Below are positions 1,621 through 14,569 of a stretch of 33,250 bases of DNA, in pieces; position 1 is the first letter of the stretch; every line of letters begins with the position of its first letter. Source of the stretch: an uncultured Opitutia bacterium (GTDB taxonomy: Bacteria > Verrucomicrobiota > Verrucomicrobiia > Opitutales > UBA953); NCBI GenBank assembly GCA_903919185.1, contig CAIXHF010000054.1:1-33250 (forward strand). Direction: 5' to 3'. The notes beneath the pieces were generated by a model that saw only the letters and a program-made list of their open reading frames with translations, searched no databases and was not told the DNA's origin. The position numbers were made by a program, and so were the translations under genes.

Positions 1621-1624
<4 letters not shown>
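1214..1624 (-). CDS. Small putative lipoprotein translationally coupled to rpoD
   Basis: This 136-residue protein has a short hydrophobic N-terminus and a lipobox LLVGC with the candidate lipidated cysteine at residue 16, so it is predicted to be a membrane-anchored periplasmic lipoprotein. The start is GTG and overlaps the rpoD TGA in a GTGA arrangement, which suggests translational coupling. Residues 20-45 are rich in proline and glycine. Residues 46-115 alternate hydrophobic and charged residues and look beta-rich, loosely like small envelope proteins with a FlgT-C-like fold found in this phylum; that resemblance is tentative. No catalytic motif is visible. Its place between a sigma factor and ychF is odd for an envelope protein. 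Function unknown. Confidence 0.75.
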
Positions 1625-3819
<2,195 letters not shown>

Positions 3820-3824
3820 GGATG

Positions 3825-5690
3825 TTAGGAAAGGGAAGGAGGGGCCGTGTGGGCCTTGCGCAGGGCAATCTTTTGACCCTGCAAGGTGTTGAGCGTGGCA
3901 ACGTCTTCGCGAGGCGTGGAGGCAATCATCGAATCCAGTCGGCGGGTCTGCACTTGCAGCTGACGTTGGTGGAAGGCCTTCAGGATGCTGTTCGCCCGGA
4001 TCAGCAGTTCTTCGTGTTTGTCGGTGTCTACCTGAGGGACGGACGATAAGCGGGCGGCTTCATCGCGAAGGTCATCGTCCAGGGCATTAATCGCCTCGCG
4101 GACGCCTTGGAAGTGTCCGTGGACGGCTTCGTTCAGAAGGGCCATTAGGAGGCTGCCTCCGCGGCCGGCTTGATCAATCCATTCCAGCGGTAACGCTTGG
4201 GCGATTGGAAGGAAGAACGATTCATGCCGGAGAAGGAGCAATATCAGGTCTTCCTCGGAAGTTGTCAAGCCCCCCCCCTTGACAGGCGGGACCTCACTGG
4301 GTTCGACCCGGCCCAGCTGGGCGGCGGGGCGTTGGGCGGCGACTGTCGCCAAGTGGCGTTCGTAGGCCATGTGCATCTCGCGGATGCCGATCCCCGCGTG
4401 CCGCGCGGCTTCGTTGAGCGCTTCGCGGACAATCTCCTCGGCCCCGGCCTGCTCGACAATTGGAAACAGGGTTTCCAAGAGCGCGAGGCGTTGCGCGAGC
4501 GGCATGTTGCTGGCGCCCTCGGGAATAATCGACTGGACGCAGAACTGCATCGCACTCCGGGCGGTCGCCACCAGGGCCGGCCAAGCCTCAGCGGAATGTG
4601 TTGAGAAATAGTCATCCGGATCCTTGCCGCCAGGCAGCGAAAGAAAACGAATATCCAAGCCTTCCCGCAGGCCGATCGGCAGGAGTCGAAGCGCCGCCTT
4701 CTGGCCCGCGGCGTCGGAGTCGAGGAAGACGATGAGGCGTTGCGTGAAGCGGCGGAGCTGGGAGAGGTGTTCTTCCGTGACGGCCGTGCCTTGGGCGGCA
4801 ATCACGCCGGGGATACCCGCCGAGTGGCAGCGGATGGCGTCCAACTGCCCTTCGACGAGCACGAAGGGCTCTTCGCCTTTGCGGATCGTCCGGGCACGGT
4901 CGAGGTTGAAGACGGTGCGCGACTTTTTGAAGAGTTCGGTTTCCGGCGAGTTGACGTATTTGGCCTCACGGGAAGGGTCATCCTGCGGTGTGATATCAAG
5001 GGTGCGCGCGGTGAAGGCGATGACGCGGCCTTGGATGTCGCGGATCGGAATAACCAGCCGGCCACGGAAGCGGCAGCGCCAGCGGGCGGGGTCGGGTACG
5101 CGGTCGGTCCCGAAGAATAGTCCAGTCTGTGCCAAGGCTTCTTTGCTGTAGCCTTTCTTAAGGAGGCCAGGGATGAGCTTGGAGTCGTCGACGGGGGCGA
5201 AGCCGATGCCGAAGTCGTCGGCGACGGCGAGGTCGAAGCGACGCTTCTCCGTCCAGTAGTTCTTAATCCATTCTCCATGAACGGCGTCTTCAAGGAAGCA
5301 CCGGCGCCAGTAGTCGGTGACCAGCTCGTGGATCTCTAAGAGCTGTCCGCGCATCGAGCGCTCGGAACTGGTCTCGCCGCCGTTCTCGTACTCGAGCTGG
5401 AAGCCGAAGCGCATGGCCACCCGTTCGATGGACTCGGGGAAGTCGAGGCCCTCGCGGGTCATGACTAACTTAAAGGCGTCGCCGCCTTGTTGGGTACTGA
5501 AGCAGTACCAGAGCCCAGTATCAGGGTTGACCTTAAAGGAGGGGCTTTTCTCAGATTTGAAAGGGCTCAGACCCCACCAGTCGCGTCCCCGCTGCTTCAT
5601 CTGGGTATAGTCGCCCGCCAACGCGACGATGTCCGCCCTTTGGCGAAGGTCGTCGATGGATCTGCGGGAAATTCGGGCCACGGCTGTCAA
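3825..5690 (-). CDS. dnaG: DNA primase DnaG with degenerate zinc ribbon
   Basis: DnaG makes the RNA primers for DNA replication. The N-terminal CHC2-type domain (residues 1-105), the central RNA polymerase core ([12 protein letters not shown] and following) and the TOPRIM site are recognisable: E280 in VEG and D324-S-D326. A C-terminal helicase-binding region follows from about 475. The zinc ribbon is abnormal. The positions equal to E. coli C40, H43, C61 and C64 read S42, K45, C63 and T66, so only one ligand remains. The longest frame begins with TTG at 5690. A GTG three codons later (5681) gives [12 protein letters not shown], which fits the usual DnaG N-terminus better, so the true start may be there. 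The total of 621 residues is normal. It directly precedes rpoD. Confidence 0.95.
4263..4284 (-). other. G9 tract inside a 7-bp inverted repeat within dnaG
   Basis: The coding strand of dnaG reads TGTCAAG, then a run that completes nine consecutive G, then CTTGACA. The arms can form a 7-bp stem with an all-G loop. The tract encodes K-G-G-G near residues 471-474, at the junction between the catalytic core and the C-terminal helicase-binding domain. Skipping one G gives a stop at once (GCT TGA). Adding one G gives about 14 foreign residues and then TGA. Confidence 0.8.
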
Positions 5691-5808: not shown

Positions 5809-6414
5809 TTAACACTCGTCGCAGAGCTTGTGGCGGATGTCTTTCGCCTCTTGGCGGCACTGGGTGGCCTCGACCGCCCGGCCCTGGGCTTCGAGGGCCT
5901 CGGCCAGGTTGGTCAGAATAGTGGCGGCCTCGCGGCTCCCGCGGGTGTGTAGGCGGTATTCCGTGGCTAAGAGCTTCCGCTGGATGCGTTCGGCCTCGGG
6001 GGCGTTACCCTGACGCAGTTCCACGCTGGCTAAAATGCTCCAGAGGCCGGCCACGTCTTCGTGGTCGGGGCCGAGCCGAACCATCTCGCAGGTCAGGGCT
6101 TCACGGTAGCAACGGATTGCCCTGGGTAAATGGCGCAGGCGGTAGTAGCAGCCGGCTAATTGCGTCAGGCCATTGGCGTAGTCCGCTGGGTCACGGGCGG
6201 GGTCGGCGGCCAGCGCGGCGAGGTAATCTTCATACCCCTTTGCCGCGGACACAAAATCACCAGCACTACTGGCCGCCCGGGCGGTGGCTTCAATCTGCAA
6301 GGCTTCCTTGGCCCTTTCGGAGGGCGGGGGAGTAGTCAGGCCTGGTGAAGGGTCGCCGGGAGTGCAGGCGACGAGTAGCGCGAGGCAGCTGGCTGATAAA
6401 ACTACACGAAACAT
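5809..6414 (-). CDS. TPR-containing putative lipoprotein
   Basis: This 201-residue protein begins with a signal peptide ending in the lipobox LLVAC (candidate cysteine 17), so a membrane-anchored periplasmic location is likely. The mature part is alpha-helical, with tetratricopeptide-like repeats from about residue 45 to 195. Examples are the segment with AGDFVSAAKGYEDYLAAL, the segment with CYYRLRHLPRAIRCYREAL, and a third with ILTNLAEALEAQGRAVEATQ. The pattern resembles kinesin-light-chain type TPRs (GPDHEDVA). Such repeats act as protein-binding scaffolds; no partner can be named. The protein ends with a CDEC motif. It is on the same strand as dnaG, 118 bp upstream, and could be part of that unit or separate. 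No catalytic residues are apparent. Confidence 0.85.
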   Translation of the reverse strand: MFRVVLSASCLALLVACTPGDPSPGLTTPPPSERAKEALQIEATARAASSAGDFVSAAKGYEDYLAALAADPARDPADYANGLTQLAGCYYRLRHLPRAIRCYREALTCEMVRLGPDHEDVAGLWSILASVELRQGNAPEAERIQRKLLATEYRLHTRGSREAATILTNLAEALEAQGRAVEATQCRQEAKDIRHKLCDEC

Positions 6415-6609
6415 AAGGTGAGGCCGTGAGGGTGGCCTCGGATCAGCGGGTCGGCAATGTTCATGTTTGCGACAGCATTGTTTCGAATGTTACGCCGGCG
6501 GATTGGTTAATGGCATTTATGACAAAAGTTAAGGTTAGGTGTATGACACGTCCGTCACCCTCCTGCCATTAAACCTTAAAGAAGGTATAGGAAGATAGTC
6601 GCCTTCTCC
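6415..6609. promoter_or_regulatory. Divergent intergenic region between TPR lipoprotein and autotransporter
   Basis: These 195 bp must contain start signals for both flanking genes. A 6-bp stem (GAGGCC at 6420-6425 with GGCCTC at 6434-6439) lies 5 nt upstream of the TPR lipoprotein start and could fold in its leader. The right half is AT-richer than the surroundings, as expected for a promoter, but I cannot assign clear -35 and -10 boxes. No small ORF is convincing. Confidence 0.35.
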
Positions 6610-9600
6610 ATGCACCACCTATCCCGATCCTTCCTCCTCGCCGCGGCCTGCTCGGTCACGGCTTTCGCTCAGCAGTATACTGGTCCTTCGGCCTCACAGT
6701 CGCCGATTGCCACGGTGACGTCCCCGAACTGGACGCTCACGTCTTTACTTTCTACGGGTGATAGCGTCCCGGGTTTTTCGGCGGGCACGTCTTACGTCAT
6801 GGGCGGGGTTCCTGATGGCCTCGGTGCGTATGACAACGGCGATGGCACATTCACGATGCTATCGAACCATGAACTTTATGATACCTGGGGTGTAACGCGT
6901 GTCGGCGGTTCCAAGGGGGCCTATGTTTCAAAGTACGTCATCAATAAGACGACGCTCGCGGTGGTTTCGGCGGGCGACTTCCTGACCTCGAATAGCAACC
7001 TCTATCTCTGGAATCAGGCAGGTTCGAATTGGACTTCGGGCGCCAGCTATGCGATGTGGCGCCTGTGCTCGGCTGATTTGGCTCCCCTCAGTGCTTTCTA
7101 TAACGCGACCACTGGCAATGGCTACAATGGCCGTATCTTTCTGAACGGTGAAGAGGGGGCTGCCGCTTCGACGGCCAATAATCCACTGGGTTCGCGAGGT
7201 TTTGCCTGGATCGCTACGGGTGCTGAAGCGGGCCGTGTCTACGAACTGCCGCACCTCGGTCGCTTCGCCGTTGAGAACCTGCTGGCTAATCCCTTCCTGC
7301 CATCAACGTCGAATCAAACGATCGTGGCCGGCAACAGCGACACCTCGCCCCAAGGCCAAGTCTATCTCTATATCGGAACCAAGCAGTCGACGGGCAACGC
7401 CATCGAGAAGGCAGGTTTGACTAATGGTACGCTCTACGGCGTCAAAGTGACTTCTGCAACTGGTTACACCGGGGCCGTGGCCAACGAACTCGCAACCGGC
7501 ATTAACGGTAATTTCATCCTAGTCTCGAAGACCGATGGGACGAACGCTGGCGCCACTCCCATCTGGACCACCTCGACGACTGCCTCCGGTCTCGTGACGA
7601 ACGCCGGTTCGGCGGGTATAACAGGCTTCGCTCGTCCAGAGGATGGTGCCTGGCTGAATGCCACGACCTACCTGTTCAATACGACTGGCTCTACTCCCTC
7701 TGGCGGTACCAGCCAGACCGCGGCGAAGGTCTATAAGTTATCCTTCGCCAATGCTGCCGATTACACGGTTGGTGGCACGGTCTCTGTCCTGGTAGATAGC
7801 TCCCGCCTTAAGGGCAAGGATGGTTCGGCGGCCTGGATGTTCGATAACCTTGCGGTTGGTCGCGATGGCTTGGTTTACATTAACGAAGACCCCGGCTTGA
7901 ATCAGTATGTCGCCAAGACTTGGGTTGTTGACCCGACCGCCGCTGATCCTAGCGCTTCGGCTCTTCAGGTCATGGAGCTTGATCGGGCCCGCTTCCTCGG
8001 AACGGTGAATGCCACCATCACCTCAGGCGCCAGCGGCACCAACGCCCTCGTTCTTTCCAGCGTCGCCGGACTGTCCGTTGGCCAAGTCGTCGGCGGCAAG
8101 GGTATCCCAGATAACACGCGCATCGTTGGCATCAATACACTGACCAACACGGTGACTTTAAGCGCCAACCTCACGGCGGCTTCTTCCGGCTTCTTCAGCG
8201 CTGGCGCCGACTTCCGCACATGGGACGAAGAGTTCACGGGTATCGTGGACGTGTCCGACATTTGGAACGACGGGACGAAGTACTTCCTGGTCGCTATGCA
8301 GGACCATAAACTCACCGCTGGCACCGACACGTACGGCACGGTCGAAGGCGGTCAGTTCATTCTAATGCGTAATGTAAGTTCGGCTGCGGTTCTCGCGGGC
8401 GGCGTCTATAACATGAACGGCTCAACGCTGGCCGGTGCCGGCGTGACCATCACTGCCCCCATCGTATTGAACGGAACGGGCGGCGTGTTCGATATGACCG
8501 GGACTAACACTATCTCCAGCGTTATCGGGGGTTCAGGTCAACTTTGGAAGATGGGTGCGGGCGAACTCATTCTGTCCGCTGCCAACACCTACACCGGCAA
8601 TACAAACGTTTCCGCCGGCATCCTGACCGTTGACGGCACCATCCTTTCGCCAACAACCTCGGTCTACTACGGCGCCACGCTCAAGGGCCATGGTACGATT
8701 CGCGGTGACGTGAAGAACTACGGTACCGTCGCTCCGGGTAATTCCCCTGGCGTACTCACCGTCACGGGCAACTACACGGAGAATGGCGTCCTTGCCATTG
8801 AGATCGCCGGCACCTCCGGTGCTGGCAGCCTCACTGGCCACGACCAGCTCGTGGTCGGCGGTACTTTCAATGCGATCGGGTCCAGCTCAAATCCGGCCAG
8901 TACGGGTTCGACCTTGAGTATCGTCAAGTATACTGGCTTTGACCCGCTGCGTACGCAAAGCTTCAAGGTCATCGCGGCCGCCAATTACGCGGGTGGCTTT
9001 GCAGTCCTCGATCGCAATACCCAGTCGACGCAGCTCTTTTACCAGCCGACCACCGGTACGCTCTTCGGCACGGGCCTGACGGAAACGCAGACCTTCGCGG
9101 ATTATGACACCGCGGTTGCCAATCGCGTCGCAGTCGGTGCGGCACTTTGGGCCGATGGCGTGACCAATGGCACGGTAATCAAGAACGGTGCTGGTTCGAC
9201 GACCTCGACCGCTAAGGCCTTCTTGGCCGCGACTGACGTCGGCAACGCTGCCGCTGGGGTTCTCTTGGCCGCTGACGTAGGCGCCGCCTTGGATGCACTC
9301 TCGCCTGAGTCGTATGGCACGGTCGCCCTGATGGGTGCTCGTAATGCCCACTCCCTCGCTCGCTCCTTGCTCGCGGCGGCTCCTTCGGGCGATGCTTGGA
9401 CCTATCAGCTCGGCTATGATGCCTCCAAGGCCACTGCTACTGCTTCGCCGACCAGCCTGAACGGGGAGTACGACGTCAACTCCAGCTACGTGCTCGCCAC
9501 TCGTGGTCTGGGGCAGAATAGCAAGGTCTCCATCATGCTCTCGACCGACCATGGTAACGTGGCTGCCAGCGGCTTCGCCTCCAAGATGACTGGTCAGGCT

Positions 9601-10255: not shown

Positions 10256-13200
10256 TTAGTCGCCGATGAAGGTGACGTCGTCCCACTGGGCCTTGAAGTA
10301 AGGAGCGGTGAGGTCTGGTTCGACGACGAGGGAGTGGTTACCGGCGGCAACAATCACCGTGGATTTACCGTCCTTGAGTTCGAGTGGTTTGCCATCAATC
10401 CAAGCGGCTTTGACGCCCGAGAGAACGAGCGGCTTGGCGGTCGCCGCCGAGGCGGTGAAACGGGCTTCGGCGTACAGTCGTCCAGGATTAAACTCCTTGA
10501 GGAGTTGACCGCCAATCAGCGTGTAGATGGTCGCCGGGGCGCCGGACTTAGCCAAGGCGCCGGGAGGTTGGTCCTGGAAGATCCATGCACGGGCGACGTT
10601 GTTTTTGCTGGTGTCGAAGGGTCCAGGCTTACCGATTTCACCGAGGAAGGCGAAGAGGCTGCGCTTGGGGACGAAGTCGAGGCCGTCCACCAAACCAGCG
10701 GGCATGAGGCTGCCGATGTTTTCACGCTTCACGAGGTTGGCCTTACTGACGGGGAGTTCCACGCCTGGGCCCGGCCGAATGATAATATCGCTGGTCGTTT
10801 CACGGGCCGGGATGCCAGTGAGGACGCTGCCGTCCTTCATGGTAAAGGCGAAGCCGTGGTAGCCTTCCTTTATCTTGGCCGCAGGGTTGAGGACGCTCTC
10901 CACGATGTAGTCAATGGGGGCACTGGCACCGATGCTGGAAAGGTCGGGTCCAAGTTTGCCGCCCGCGCCGCCGATAGCGTGACAGAGCGCGCAGCCGTTC
11001 TTGCGGTAGACGATTTCACCTTCGACTGGATCAGCGCCACGCTTGAGCGCGGCGACCATACCGTTCACTTCGGCGGTGTAGTCACGTGCGCCAGCTTTTG
11101 CGCCAGTGAGCGGGGTGAGGACGTCGACCAGGGCCTTGCCCGTCCGGCCCGAGCCCTTGGCGGCCTGGAGGGCGGTGGCGTAGGTTTCCGCCGTGAGGCC
11201 CTTAGGGAAGTCCTTGGCTAGACGGGCCGCGAAGGCCGCGTGGGTGAAGAGTTCCTGCCAAGTACTGACCGCCTCATTTTTCTTCAGTTGGGCAAACACG
11301 CTTGGTAGCACCTTGAGTGCTTCCGCTGGTGCGTGCACGGAGAGGCCAATCAGGGCGCCACGCCGGACGGAGAGCGGCTGCGTGTCAGCGGAGAGGGCCT
11401 TCAATGCGTTGACGGAAGCCGGTTGGCCGATGTCGCGGAGGGCTTTAAAAGCGAAGTCGCGAGCGGCCGGGTCTTTTTCTTGTCCCGCGAGCTTGGCGAT
11501 TTCGGGAACGGAGGTTGCCAGCTTCCAGGATCCGCTCAAGCGAACCGCGGCCAGACGGAGGTCACGGTTGTCGGATTGGAATAAGGCACCGAGTGCGGCG
11601 AGATCTCCAGTGGGGCGAACGTTGCGCGTGAGGGCGGCGTCGACCAGCGCACCCGCAGCCCGGACGCGGGCCGCCGTTTGCAAGGCATTTTCCTTGGTTA
11701 GTAGTCCGAAGAGTTGGGTGATTTCCGTTTCTGCACCGGCCTTGCCGATGAGTTCGATCCAGGGGCCAGTGCCCGCGGCATCGATGGTCCGTCCCTTGAA
11801 GAGAGCTTGGATGTGCGGGCCGCTCACTACAGGGTCAGCGGTCTTGACGAGTCGGTCCAACTTGGCTTCGCGACCGTTCAGGAGGTCGGGCTGGGCTACG
11901 ATGGCTTTAAACCAGGTCTGGGCGACTTCGTTGCTACTCGTCCAAGCAGCAAAATCTAGGAAGTTGTCTTCTGGGTTGTTGGGGAGGTTGTCGAGGATGG
12001 CGTCCGCCGAAGCGAACGTCCCCACCCGCGCCAAGGCACGATAGGCTTCGAGTTGCACGCGGGGGTTGGCGTGTTTCAGGGTGGCGGCAATCGCAGGAAC
12101 GTCGTTCGTCTGCACCAAGCGGTTGGCCTTGCCGAGCTCGCGGAGGGCGACCTGCACGGTGACGGCATCGGTACTCTTCAGCATGGCCAAGAGTTCGGCG
12201 GAGCTGTCGGTACGACCGCTGAGTAACCAAGCGGCGTGGCGTCGGGTGACTTCATCCTTAGCCCAACCGCTGACGGCTTTTTGGAGCGACGCTTGGTCGA
12301 GGAGCAGGAGTTCGCGGCGGGCCTGTTCGAATTCCCAGCGATTCGCCGAGGTGAGTTTAGCGAGTAAGGCCGCCGGCTTTTGACCAGCGAGGGATTCCCA
12401 GGCAATGGGTTTGCTGGCCGTCGGTGCGATGCGCCAGATGCGGCCGTGTTGCTTGTCGCGGCGAGGGTCGCGGAAATCGACTTCCCCGTGATTGATGATG
12501 GGGTTAGTCCAGTCGGCAATGTAAAGGCCGCCATCGGGGCCCATCGCGACGCCAATGGGGCGGAACGAAGCATCGCTGGTGCGGACAACGTCCGGTTGCG
12601 CGGTGGTGATGAAGCCAGACTTCGGCTTGGCGTCGGCGGTAAAGTCATTGAAGGCGAACCGGACGATGCGGTGGGCGCGGAAGTCATTCGTGATGGCGTT
12701 GCCTTGCCACTCGGCGCCGAAGAGGGGGCTCTGGACAATTTCCAGGCCACAGAACTTCGGGTAAGAACCCGGGCTGATGCTGCTGACCGTCCGGCGGGCG
12801 CCTTCGGTCGCATTGAGAACAGCACCGGGGAAGCCCCAGCTGATGCCGTTACCGTCGGCTCCCGAGGTCAGGAAGGTCTGGCCAGCCAAGTCTTCCTGTT
12901 GTCCCCAAGCGTTAACGAGGCCCTTCGAGTTCACCTCAAGGCGCTCGCTTTCGGGGTCGTAGGCGTAGGCCGCGCCGGAGTTCGCACGGATTAAGCCCCA
13001 CGGGGTTTCGATGTGCGAGTGGATGTAGATCGTTTGGTGGAAATAGAGGCGACCATCGACGCCCCAGTGGAGGGCATGGATGATGTGGTGCGTATCCTCA
13101 GTTCCGAAACCGCTGAACACGATGCGCCGATCGCTCAGCAACCCGTCGGAGCCGGGGTTGGTGAGGTGGAGAAGCTCGGTGCTAGCGCTGATGAAGCAGC

Positions 13201-14569
13201 CGCCCCGGTTATCAGGGGCGACACCAGCGGGGATGAGCAACTTGTCAGCGATGATCCGCGATGATTCCGCGACTCCATCCTTGTTCGTGTCTTCGAGGAG
13301 GATGATCTTATCGTTGCCAGTCGAGGGGCCGAACTTAGCGGCATTTCCTTCCATCTGCGCACCGAGGTCGTCGGGATTAACTTGCGGGTAGGTGTTGGAA
13401 GTCGCGACCCAGAGGCGGCCGCGGGTGTCCCAGTTCATATGGACAGGCTTTTCAAGTAACGGGTTTTCAGCGAAGAGTGTAATCTCGAGGCCCGGCTCGA
13501 GTTTGAAGTCTGGACGAGGCAGCGGAGGGAGCTGCTTAAGTTGGGTTTCCGACTTGGGTTCGGGCGGCAGGGTGCTGGGCTTGCCAGCCGAGATGCCGAT
13601 AGCGTTGGCTTCTGCCTTGTCGACGAGGGGGTCGAACTTCGGAATCTCGACGGCGTTACGGCCTTGTTCGCCCCGACGGAAGCCGAAGATATAGGTATAG
13701 TTGGCGGGGCGGCTACGGTGGAAAAAGAGTGCGTTCTTGCGGAGAATGGCCTCACGGAGCGAAGCCTGCGCGGCGTCTTCCTTGTCCCACTGGCTGGCAT
13801 CGGTCTTCCAACCCAGCTGTTGGGCGAAACTCGTGGCTAAGGCACGGTAGCCGCGGGCGTTTAGGTGCACACCGTTATCGGTTCCTTGCGTGAGCTTGAT
13901 GCCCGCGGTTTGCTGCCATTCGGCGGCGATGAATGGCGCGTTCTTCTCAGCGGCGAGTTCGCGGAGGACTTTTTCATACTCAGCGAGGATGGCGTTGTGT
14001 TCGGCGGGATTGGGTAAGCCCGGCCGAGAAGCGCGAAGGTCTTCATGCTTGATGGGACCGACGAAGACGAAACGCACTTTGCCGCCAGGGCTGGCCGCAG
14101 TGATAAGGTCCATGAGCTGAAGCATCTCTCGGCGGAACTTCGCGGGACTGTGGTCGAGGCCATAGCGCGCTGGGTCGGGGTTGAGGACCGGGTCGTTCTT
14201 GCGATAGGTGAGTTCGTCCAAACTCGCGGCCATGCCGTAGCCGAGGATGGCCACGGTTGGTTTCACGACTGCGAGCTGTTCCTTGAGGCTGTCCACACCC
14301 TTGGCGACGGGATCAAAGCTCGCACGGGAGGCGCCGAGGGGACTGTCGCCGCTATAGCCGAGGTTACGGACGGCGAAGTTACGGCCTGGGAATTCGCGGC
14401 GCATCTTCGTCTCGAGGTAACCGAAGTTATTTTCGCGCTCCATGAGCACGTCGCCGATGAGCAACACGCGATCACCGTCTTGGAGGGTGAGCTTGGCCTC
14501 GGCGTAGGCGGTGAGGGCGCTGGTCAAGAGGCAGGACAGCGTGAGGAACGAGCGCAGGGAAGGACGCAT
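10256..14569 (-). CDS. Secreted SGNH-like / PVC beta-propeller / HEAT / cytochrome c protein
   Basis: This 1437-residue protein has a signal peptide (1-24). Residues about 28-250 form an SGNH/GDSL-hydrolase-like domain: block I reads GDVLMER, so valine sits where the catalytic serine should be, while the block V region keeps NGVHLN. Residues about 350-735 match the PVC-type membrane-bound-dehydrogenase beta-propeller (LWVATSNTYPQ, IADWTNPIINHGEVDFRDPR). HEAT-like helical repeats follow (about 735-1150), then a cytochrome c domain with C1193-A-L-C1196-H1197. A C-terminal beta domain has no clear name. Such proteins are numerous in Verrucomicrobiota and Planctomycetes and are thought to oxidise sugars or other substrates in the periplasm, passing electrons to the heme; the substrate here is unknown. 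It is convergent with the autotransporter. A partial paralogue starts at 30195. Confidence 0.9.
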   Translation of the reverse strand: MRPSLRSFLTLSCLLTSALTAYAEAKLTLQDGDRVLLIGDVLMERENNFGYLETKMRREFPGRNFAVRNLGYSGDSPLGASRASFDPVAKGVDSLKEQLAVVKPTVAILGYGMAASLDELTYRKNDPVLNPDPARYGLDHSPAKFRREMLQLMDLITAASPGGKVRFVFVGPIKHEDLRASRPGLPNPAEHNAILAEYEKVLRELAAEKNAPFIAAEWQQTAGIKLTQGTDNGVHLNARGYRALATSFAQQLGWKTDASQWDKEDAAQASLREAILRKNALFFHRSRPANYTYIFGFRRGEQGRNAVEIPKFDPLVDKAEANAIGISAGKPSTLPPEPKSETQLKQLPPLPRPDFKLEPGLEITLFAENPLLEKPVHMNWDTRGRLWVATSNTYPQVNPDDLGAQMEGNAAKFGPSTGNDKIILLEDTNKDGVAESSRIIADKLLIPAGVAPDNRGGCFISASTELLHLTNPGSDGLLSDRRIVFSGFGTEDTHHIIHALHWGVDGRLYFHQTIYIHSHIETPWGLIRANSGAAYAYDPESERLEVNSKGLVNAWGQQEDLAGQTFLTSGADGNGISWGFPGAVLNATEGARRTVSSISPGSYPKFCGLEIVQSPLFGAEWQGNAITNDFRAHRIVRFAFNDFTADAKPKSGFITTAQPDVVRTSDASFRPIGVAMGPDGGLYIADWTNPIINHGEVDFRDPRRDKQHGRIWRIAPTASKPIAWESLAGQKPAALLAKLTSANRWEFEQARRELLLLDQASLQKAVSGWAKDEVTRRHAAWLLSGRTDSSAELLAMLKSTDAVTVQVALRELGKANRLVQTNDVPAIAATLKHANPRVQLEAYRALARVGTFASADAILDNLPNNPEDNFLDFAAWTSSNEVAQTWFKAIVAQPDLLNGREAKLDRLVKTADPVVSGPHIQALFKGRTIDAAGTGPWIELIGKAGAETEITQLFGLLTKENALQTAARVRAAGALVDAALTRNVRPTGDLAALGALFQSDNRDLRLAAVRLSGSWKLATSVPEIAKLAGQEKDPAARDFAFKALRDIGQPASVNALKALSADTQPLSVRRGALIGLSVHAPAEALKVLPSVFAQLKKNEAVSTWQELFTHAAFAARLAKDFPKGLTAETYATALQAAKGSGRTGKALVDVLTPLTGAKAGARDYTAEVNGMVAALKRGADPVEGEIVYRKNGCALCHAIGGAGGKLGPDLSSIGASAPIDYIVESVLNPAAKIKEGYHGFAFTMKDGSVLTGIPARETTSDIIIRPGPGVELPVSKANLVKRENIGSLMPAGLVDGLDFVPKRSLFAFLGEIGKPGPFDTSKNNVARAWIFQDQPPGALAKSGAPATIYTLIGGQLLKEFNPGRLYAEARFTASAATAKPLVLSGVKAAWIDGKPLELKDGKSTVIVAAGNHSLVVEPDLTAPYFKAQWDDVTFIGD

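Follow-up and report, generated by a model that had tools for sequence, protein, structure and literature searches.

A DnaG primase with a probably metal-free zinc ribbon in an uncultured Opitutia bacterium, and the recurrence of its ligand swap across bacterial phyla

Can a bacterial primase exchange most of its zinc ligands and remain the ordinary replicative enzyme of its cell? In reviews, the Cys3His zinc site is treated as an invariant element of bacterial primase and as a feature of the enzyme as a drug target. The question is raised by a dnaG gene of an uncultured Opitutia bacterium, located in a stretch of 33,250 nucleotides (the window, meaning here the whole stretch analysed). The source genome is a fragmented metagenome-assembled genome (MAG) of 2.29 Mb and 89% completeness. 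Instead of a Cys-His-Cys-Cys (CHCC) ligand set, the encoded protein has S42/K45/C63/T66.

The gene and its altered ribbon

The features considered are the following, all on the minus strand.
3825..5690, minus: dnaG, DNA primase of 621 aa with a ligand-less CHC2 ribbon and a TTG start (open reading frame and family matches)
5376..5675, minus: N-terminal 'zinc-binding' domain (residues 6–105), predicted DnaG ribbon fold (AlphaFold, Foldseek and alignment)
5565..5567, minus: Ser42 codon (Cys40 in E. coli)
5556..5558, minus: Lys45 codon (His43 in E. coli)
5502..5504, minus: Cys63 codon, the sole ligand kept (Cys61 in E. coli)
5496..5498, minus: Ser65 codon, in place of the Gly that is nearly invariant in the CFGC knuckle, and switching together with the ligands
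5493..5495, minus: Thr66 codon (Cys64 in E. coli), just outside the interval 5502–5567 of an earlier note on this DNA
4608..4862, minus: TOPRIM domain, acidic residues intact (family match and relatives' alignment)
1621..3819, minus: rpoD (sigma-70), directly downstream of dnaG in the usual dnaG–rpoD arrangement

The window protein is a full-length match to the dnaG family TIGR01391 (340 bits against a curated cut-off of 283.6) and also matches PF01807 (92 bits, cut-off 24.9), PF08275 and Toprim, the latter two marking its polymerase (RPD) core. The acidic residues of the TOPRIM domain, which the earlier note had described as intact, are all present (E280, D284, D324, D326, D357 and D359) and invariant among relatives. 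The C-terminal third is present as a region, with zero matches to Pfam DnaB-binding families. Gene order in the window runs from dnaG to rpoD and then ychF. Elsewhere in the window, positions 10256–14569 (minus strand) encode a 1437-aa protein that combines a GDSL lipase, DUF7133, HEAT repeats and a weak cytochrome c match.

Translation, together with a gap-free alignment to the solved CHCC ribbon of 1D0Q (from a profile of the window ribbon and its relatives), bears out the earlier reading of the four ligand positions in an ungapped ribbon. One change goes beyond that reading: the glycine between the last two ligands is Ser65 in the window, and the CFGC knuckle has become CFST. The protein resembles canonical DnaG (E. 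coli; B. stearothermophilus, 1D0Q; A. aeolicus, 2AU3) in domain order, gap-free ribbon, predicted fold (TM 0.85), TOPRIM acids and dnaG–rpoD neighbourhood, but differs in the replacement of three of the four zinc ligands and the knuckle glycine.

Integrity of the gene and distribution of the two ligand states

The window stems from a fragmented, 89% complete MAG, a provenance compatible with the explanation that the ligand loss reflects a fault of sequencing or binning, or else the decay of a second copy; the probability of this is nevertheless vanishingly small. The same ligand residues occur in more than 40 genomes of the genus, where every ribbon read agrees, and every ribbon read from other genera of the family is likewise of the S-x-[CD]-[ST] pattern (S-type). 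S-type ribbons are also encoded in relatives assembled as one contig (G004, G032 and G094), each with exactly one PF01807 match. The source genome has a single match to this CHC2 family, and the PF01807 search of this 89% complete genome returned no further dnaG in which the CHC2 motif is intact, a check that the earlier note had proposed. Against decay, the strongest purifying selection falls on the ribbon: within the genus, pN/pS is 0.037 for the ribbon (residues 36–72), 0.157 for TOPRIM, 0.181 for the RPD and 0.398 for the C-terminus, making the ribbon the most constrained part of dnaG. Error and decay were rejected on the one-contig relatives, the genus-wide identical residues and pN/pS. 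The ligand loss in the window is neither a sequencing error nor the product of a decaying gene, and the earlier view that the substitutions are real is upheld by the uniformity of the genus and the slow evolution of the ribbon.

Several loci in other genomes deserve separate mention. The f17 genome G081 (one contig, 2.3 Mb, rated 95% complete) yielded no dnaG with either PF01807 or the S-type profile, and PF01807 matched eight times in G071 and four times in G049. Two overlapping frames make up dnaG at G204:C259:15317-17180 and G237:C60:28534-30397 (L097, L098), where the break lies near residue 470, and in G014:C13, where it lies near residue 460; the cause is either indel errors or genuine frameshifts in the linker that precedes the C-terminal domain. 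At L170 (G049:C37, about 6000–8610) lies a second, divergent CHC2-Toprim primase reading SPF...HCMSSGKGG, which probably belongs to a mobile element; ligand loss thus extends beyond housekeeping DnaG.

Among 264 aligned full-length DnaGs, 129 carry CHCC and 135 are S-type, with no intermediate; about two-thirds of the sequences are from Verrucomicrobiota, so the lack of intermediates holds for that sample. Position 42 is Cys in 100% of the CHCC proteins and Ser in 100% of the S-types, position 65 is Gly in 98% of the former and Ser in 100% of the latter, and position 66 is Cys in the one and Ser or Thr in the other. The flanks PF, E, PSF and GG hardly differ between the two. Asp takes the place of Cys63 in family f20 and in part of f8, as well as in many Bacteroidota and some Hyphomicrobiales.

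Comparison of these columns in close relatives, also proposed in the earlier note, indicated that members of the genus, family and order do not keep C/H/C/C, with one exception: the S-type was seen in all sampled families of the order but f14 (Opitutaceae-like), where the site is CHCC. In family f20 and in part of f8, the remaining cysteine is gone too (S/N/D/S and S/T/D/S). Elsewhere in the class, f30 (genomes of 2.3–2.5 Mb) and f34 are S-type, and f29, f31, f32, f33 and f35 keep CHCC, as do the sampled genomes from other classes of Verrucomicrobiota.

Beyond this phylum, a scan of named genomes recovered S-type DnaGs in Bacteroidota (Salegentibacter, Zobellia, other Flavobacteriia and a Flammeovirgaceae MAG), in Ancylobacter, Bradyrhizobium, other Hyphomicrobiales and Robiginitomaculum, and in a Corynebacterium, a Saccharibacteria MAG, a Patescibacteria MAG and one unplaced bacterium. 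The S-type is not general in Bacteroidota, since Parabacteroides and Prevotella have the CHCC set. By DNA pattern, at least 72 of 198 Bacteroidota genomes, at least 14 of 115 Alphaproteobacteria genomes and at least 1 of 119 Actinomycetota genomes (the Corynebacterium) are S-type. These counts are lower bounds, and the pattern demands a WSN codon, in practice Ser or Thr, at the knuckle glycine. The reversed pattern, used as a control, gave 0 matches, and translation of those loci that were fetched confirmed the S-type motif. The histidine persists in two Bacteroidota (SHDT), and in one alphaproteobacterium the knuckle glycine position is occupied by Ala. Judged from these motifs, the same swap recurs in at least five phyla and is not confined to the window lineage. 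The metal-free N-domain that the earlier note ascribed to this lineage is thus very probably in use there, in an otherwise normal DnaG, but it is not a lineage peculiarity, because the swap recurs so widely.

Origins of the S-type site

A tree of RpoB and RpoC (2617 columns) placed CHCC-bearing f14 as sister to the S-type genome VE3 (100/100), followed by S-type f24 (89/82) and then by 26 other S-type rows, with f30 and f34 forming a separate S-type clade (100/100). Given this position of f14, the ligands were either lost at least three times within the order, or lost once and regained once. An AU test on the DnaG core did not reject a single clade of the order's S-type members (p = 0.27). A ribbon swap from a distant source was rejected as the origin of the f14 site: with the ligands masked, the f14 ribbon backbone is most like those of S-type VE3 and f24 and was therefore not imported from a distant CHCC lineage. 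That the zinc site is a two-state switch able to flip back, with f14 regaining all four ligands inside an S-type clade by point substitution in a metal-free ribbon, seems to us conceivable but improbable. We lean towards parallel losses in the order, because losses are common elsewhere.

Between phyla, the near identity of the S-type motif would suit one ancient loss followed by transfer of the ribbon. Two comparisons count against this scenario, which we consider very unlikely. In a tree of the catalytic core built without the ribbon, S-types fall with CHCC proteins of the same phylum, and at least ten state changes are implied, on a quick tree with many open forks. Furthermore, with the ligand columns masked, the ribbons of Corynebacterium (Actinomycetota), Alphaproteobacteria and Patescibacteria have their closest counterparts among the CHCC ribbons of the same phylum and not among S-types of other phyla, which argues for parallel substitution; for Bacteroidota, this comparison had few same-phylum CHCC ribbons and is uninformative. 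We accordingly take the swap to have arisen by parallel substitution in four phyla or more, to which Bacteroidota probably add one.

Fold, metal and function

AlphaFold, run with 94 S-type ribbons, returned the known ribbon fold with a pLDDT of 93.7, a result to be read in light of the fact that it models without metal and may return a known fold whatever the ligands. The best Foldseek match of this model was the zinc domain of B. stearothermophilus (1D0Q; TM 0.85, rmsd 1.3 Å), followed by the Aquifex primase. A profile of the window ribbon and its relatives found no solved structure of an S-type ribbon, the solved DnaG ribbons found being the CHCC proteins 1D0Q and 2AU3.

From these data we infer the absence of metal and the retention of priming, and consider it likely that the window DnaG is the ordinary replicative primase of its cell with a metal-free, still functional ribbon. 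In the proposed mechanism, the zinc ligands were replaced together (C40 by Ser, H43 by a variable residue, C64 by Ser or Thr, with C61 kept or replaced by Asp), accompanied by a Gly to Ser change inside the second knuckle. Packing and hydrogen bonds of the resulting S/S/T side-chain cluster would hold the ribbon fold without the ion, and the metal-free ribbon would still dock on the polymerase core, holding the template during initiation. Conservation of the ribbon suggests that the template-binding and initiation role of the domain is probably kept. Because most S-types keep one cysteine, a weak non-canonical metal site may exist in those members.

Published work bears on this proposal from both sides. 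Studies of the T7 and B. subtilis primases hold that template recognition requires the zinc domain (PMC6163395, PMC5429622), and published work gives the domain a part in template binding and initiation (PMC6163395, PMC5429622, PMC12839067). The requirement counts against function without metal, as does metazoan Twinkle, which lost its cysteines along with primase activity (PMC3610141). The N-terminal primase-like domain of this helicase is a related domain without zinc cysteines, but Twinkle has also lost other primase motifs, whereas the window DnaG has an intact core and is the sole dnaG found. A precedent in favour is bacterial GluRS, in which a domain free of zinc performs no worse than its zinc-bound counterpart (PMC4381286); this enzyme and cysteine-free ribosomal protein variants share with DnaG the recurrent loss of ligands from a retained domain, although they are different proteins. 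The open-access literature, with subscription journals mostly outside the search, yielded no description of a ligand-less bacterial DnaG.

Alternatively, the metal may have been lost and the original role may have drifted, with a changed initiation specificity (a different or relaxed trinucleotide) and the conserved Ser/Thr knuckle contacting template DNA directly. This reading, which we hold to be rather doubtful, draws on the contribution of the zinc domain to initiation-site recognition in the T7 and B. subtilis primases (PMC12839067, PMC5429622) and on the restriction of the switching positions to the ligands and knuckle glycine; the likeness of the PF, E, PSF and GG flanks in the CHCC and S-type proteins speaks against it. 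The extreme conservation of the remaining ribbon would, if anything, argue for retained function.

As to cause, selection for zinc sparing or for fewer oxidisable cysteines (redox hardening) is a tentative explanation that we judge unlikely to be the driver. In the order genomes checked, ribosomal protein L31 is of the long, cysteine-poor type B, as expected of zinc sparing, but f14 combines a CHCC DnaG with type-B L31, f34 combines an S-type DnaG with a four-cysteine L31, and most S-types keep C63. A zinc-sparing link with L31 was rejected, since the DnaG and L31 states do not track each other. At the L31 loci themselves (L409–L428), the order genomes checked, f14 included, appear to use type-B L31 only. 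Candidate causes of the loss are redox hardening and neutral drift by way of an ion that had become redundant.

Returning to the metal-free, functional ribbon, the ligand swap has arisen separately in several phyla while the predicted shape of the ribbon and its strictly conserved surroundings were kept, and the zinc of bacterial primase is therefore probably dispensable. If so, the annotation 'CHC2 zinc finger' would mislead for many public proteins, S-type DnaG sequences being already public. Natural sister pairs of CHCC and S-type DnaGs would then offer a direct route to the role of zinc in primer initiation. Should Flavobacteriaceae, relatives of Bradyrhizobium, Corynebacterium and others indeed prime DNA without zinc, the metal in this enzyme would be structural and replaceable.
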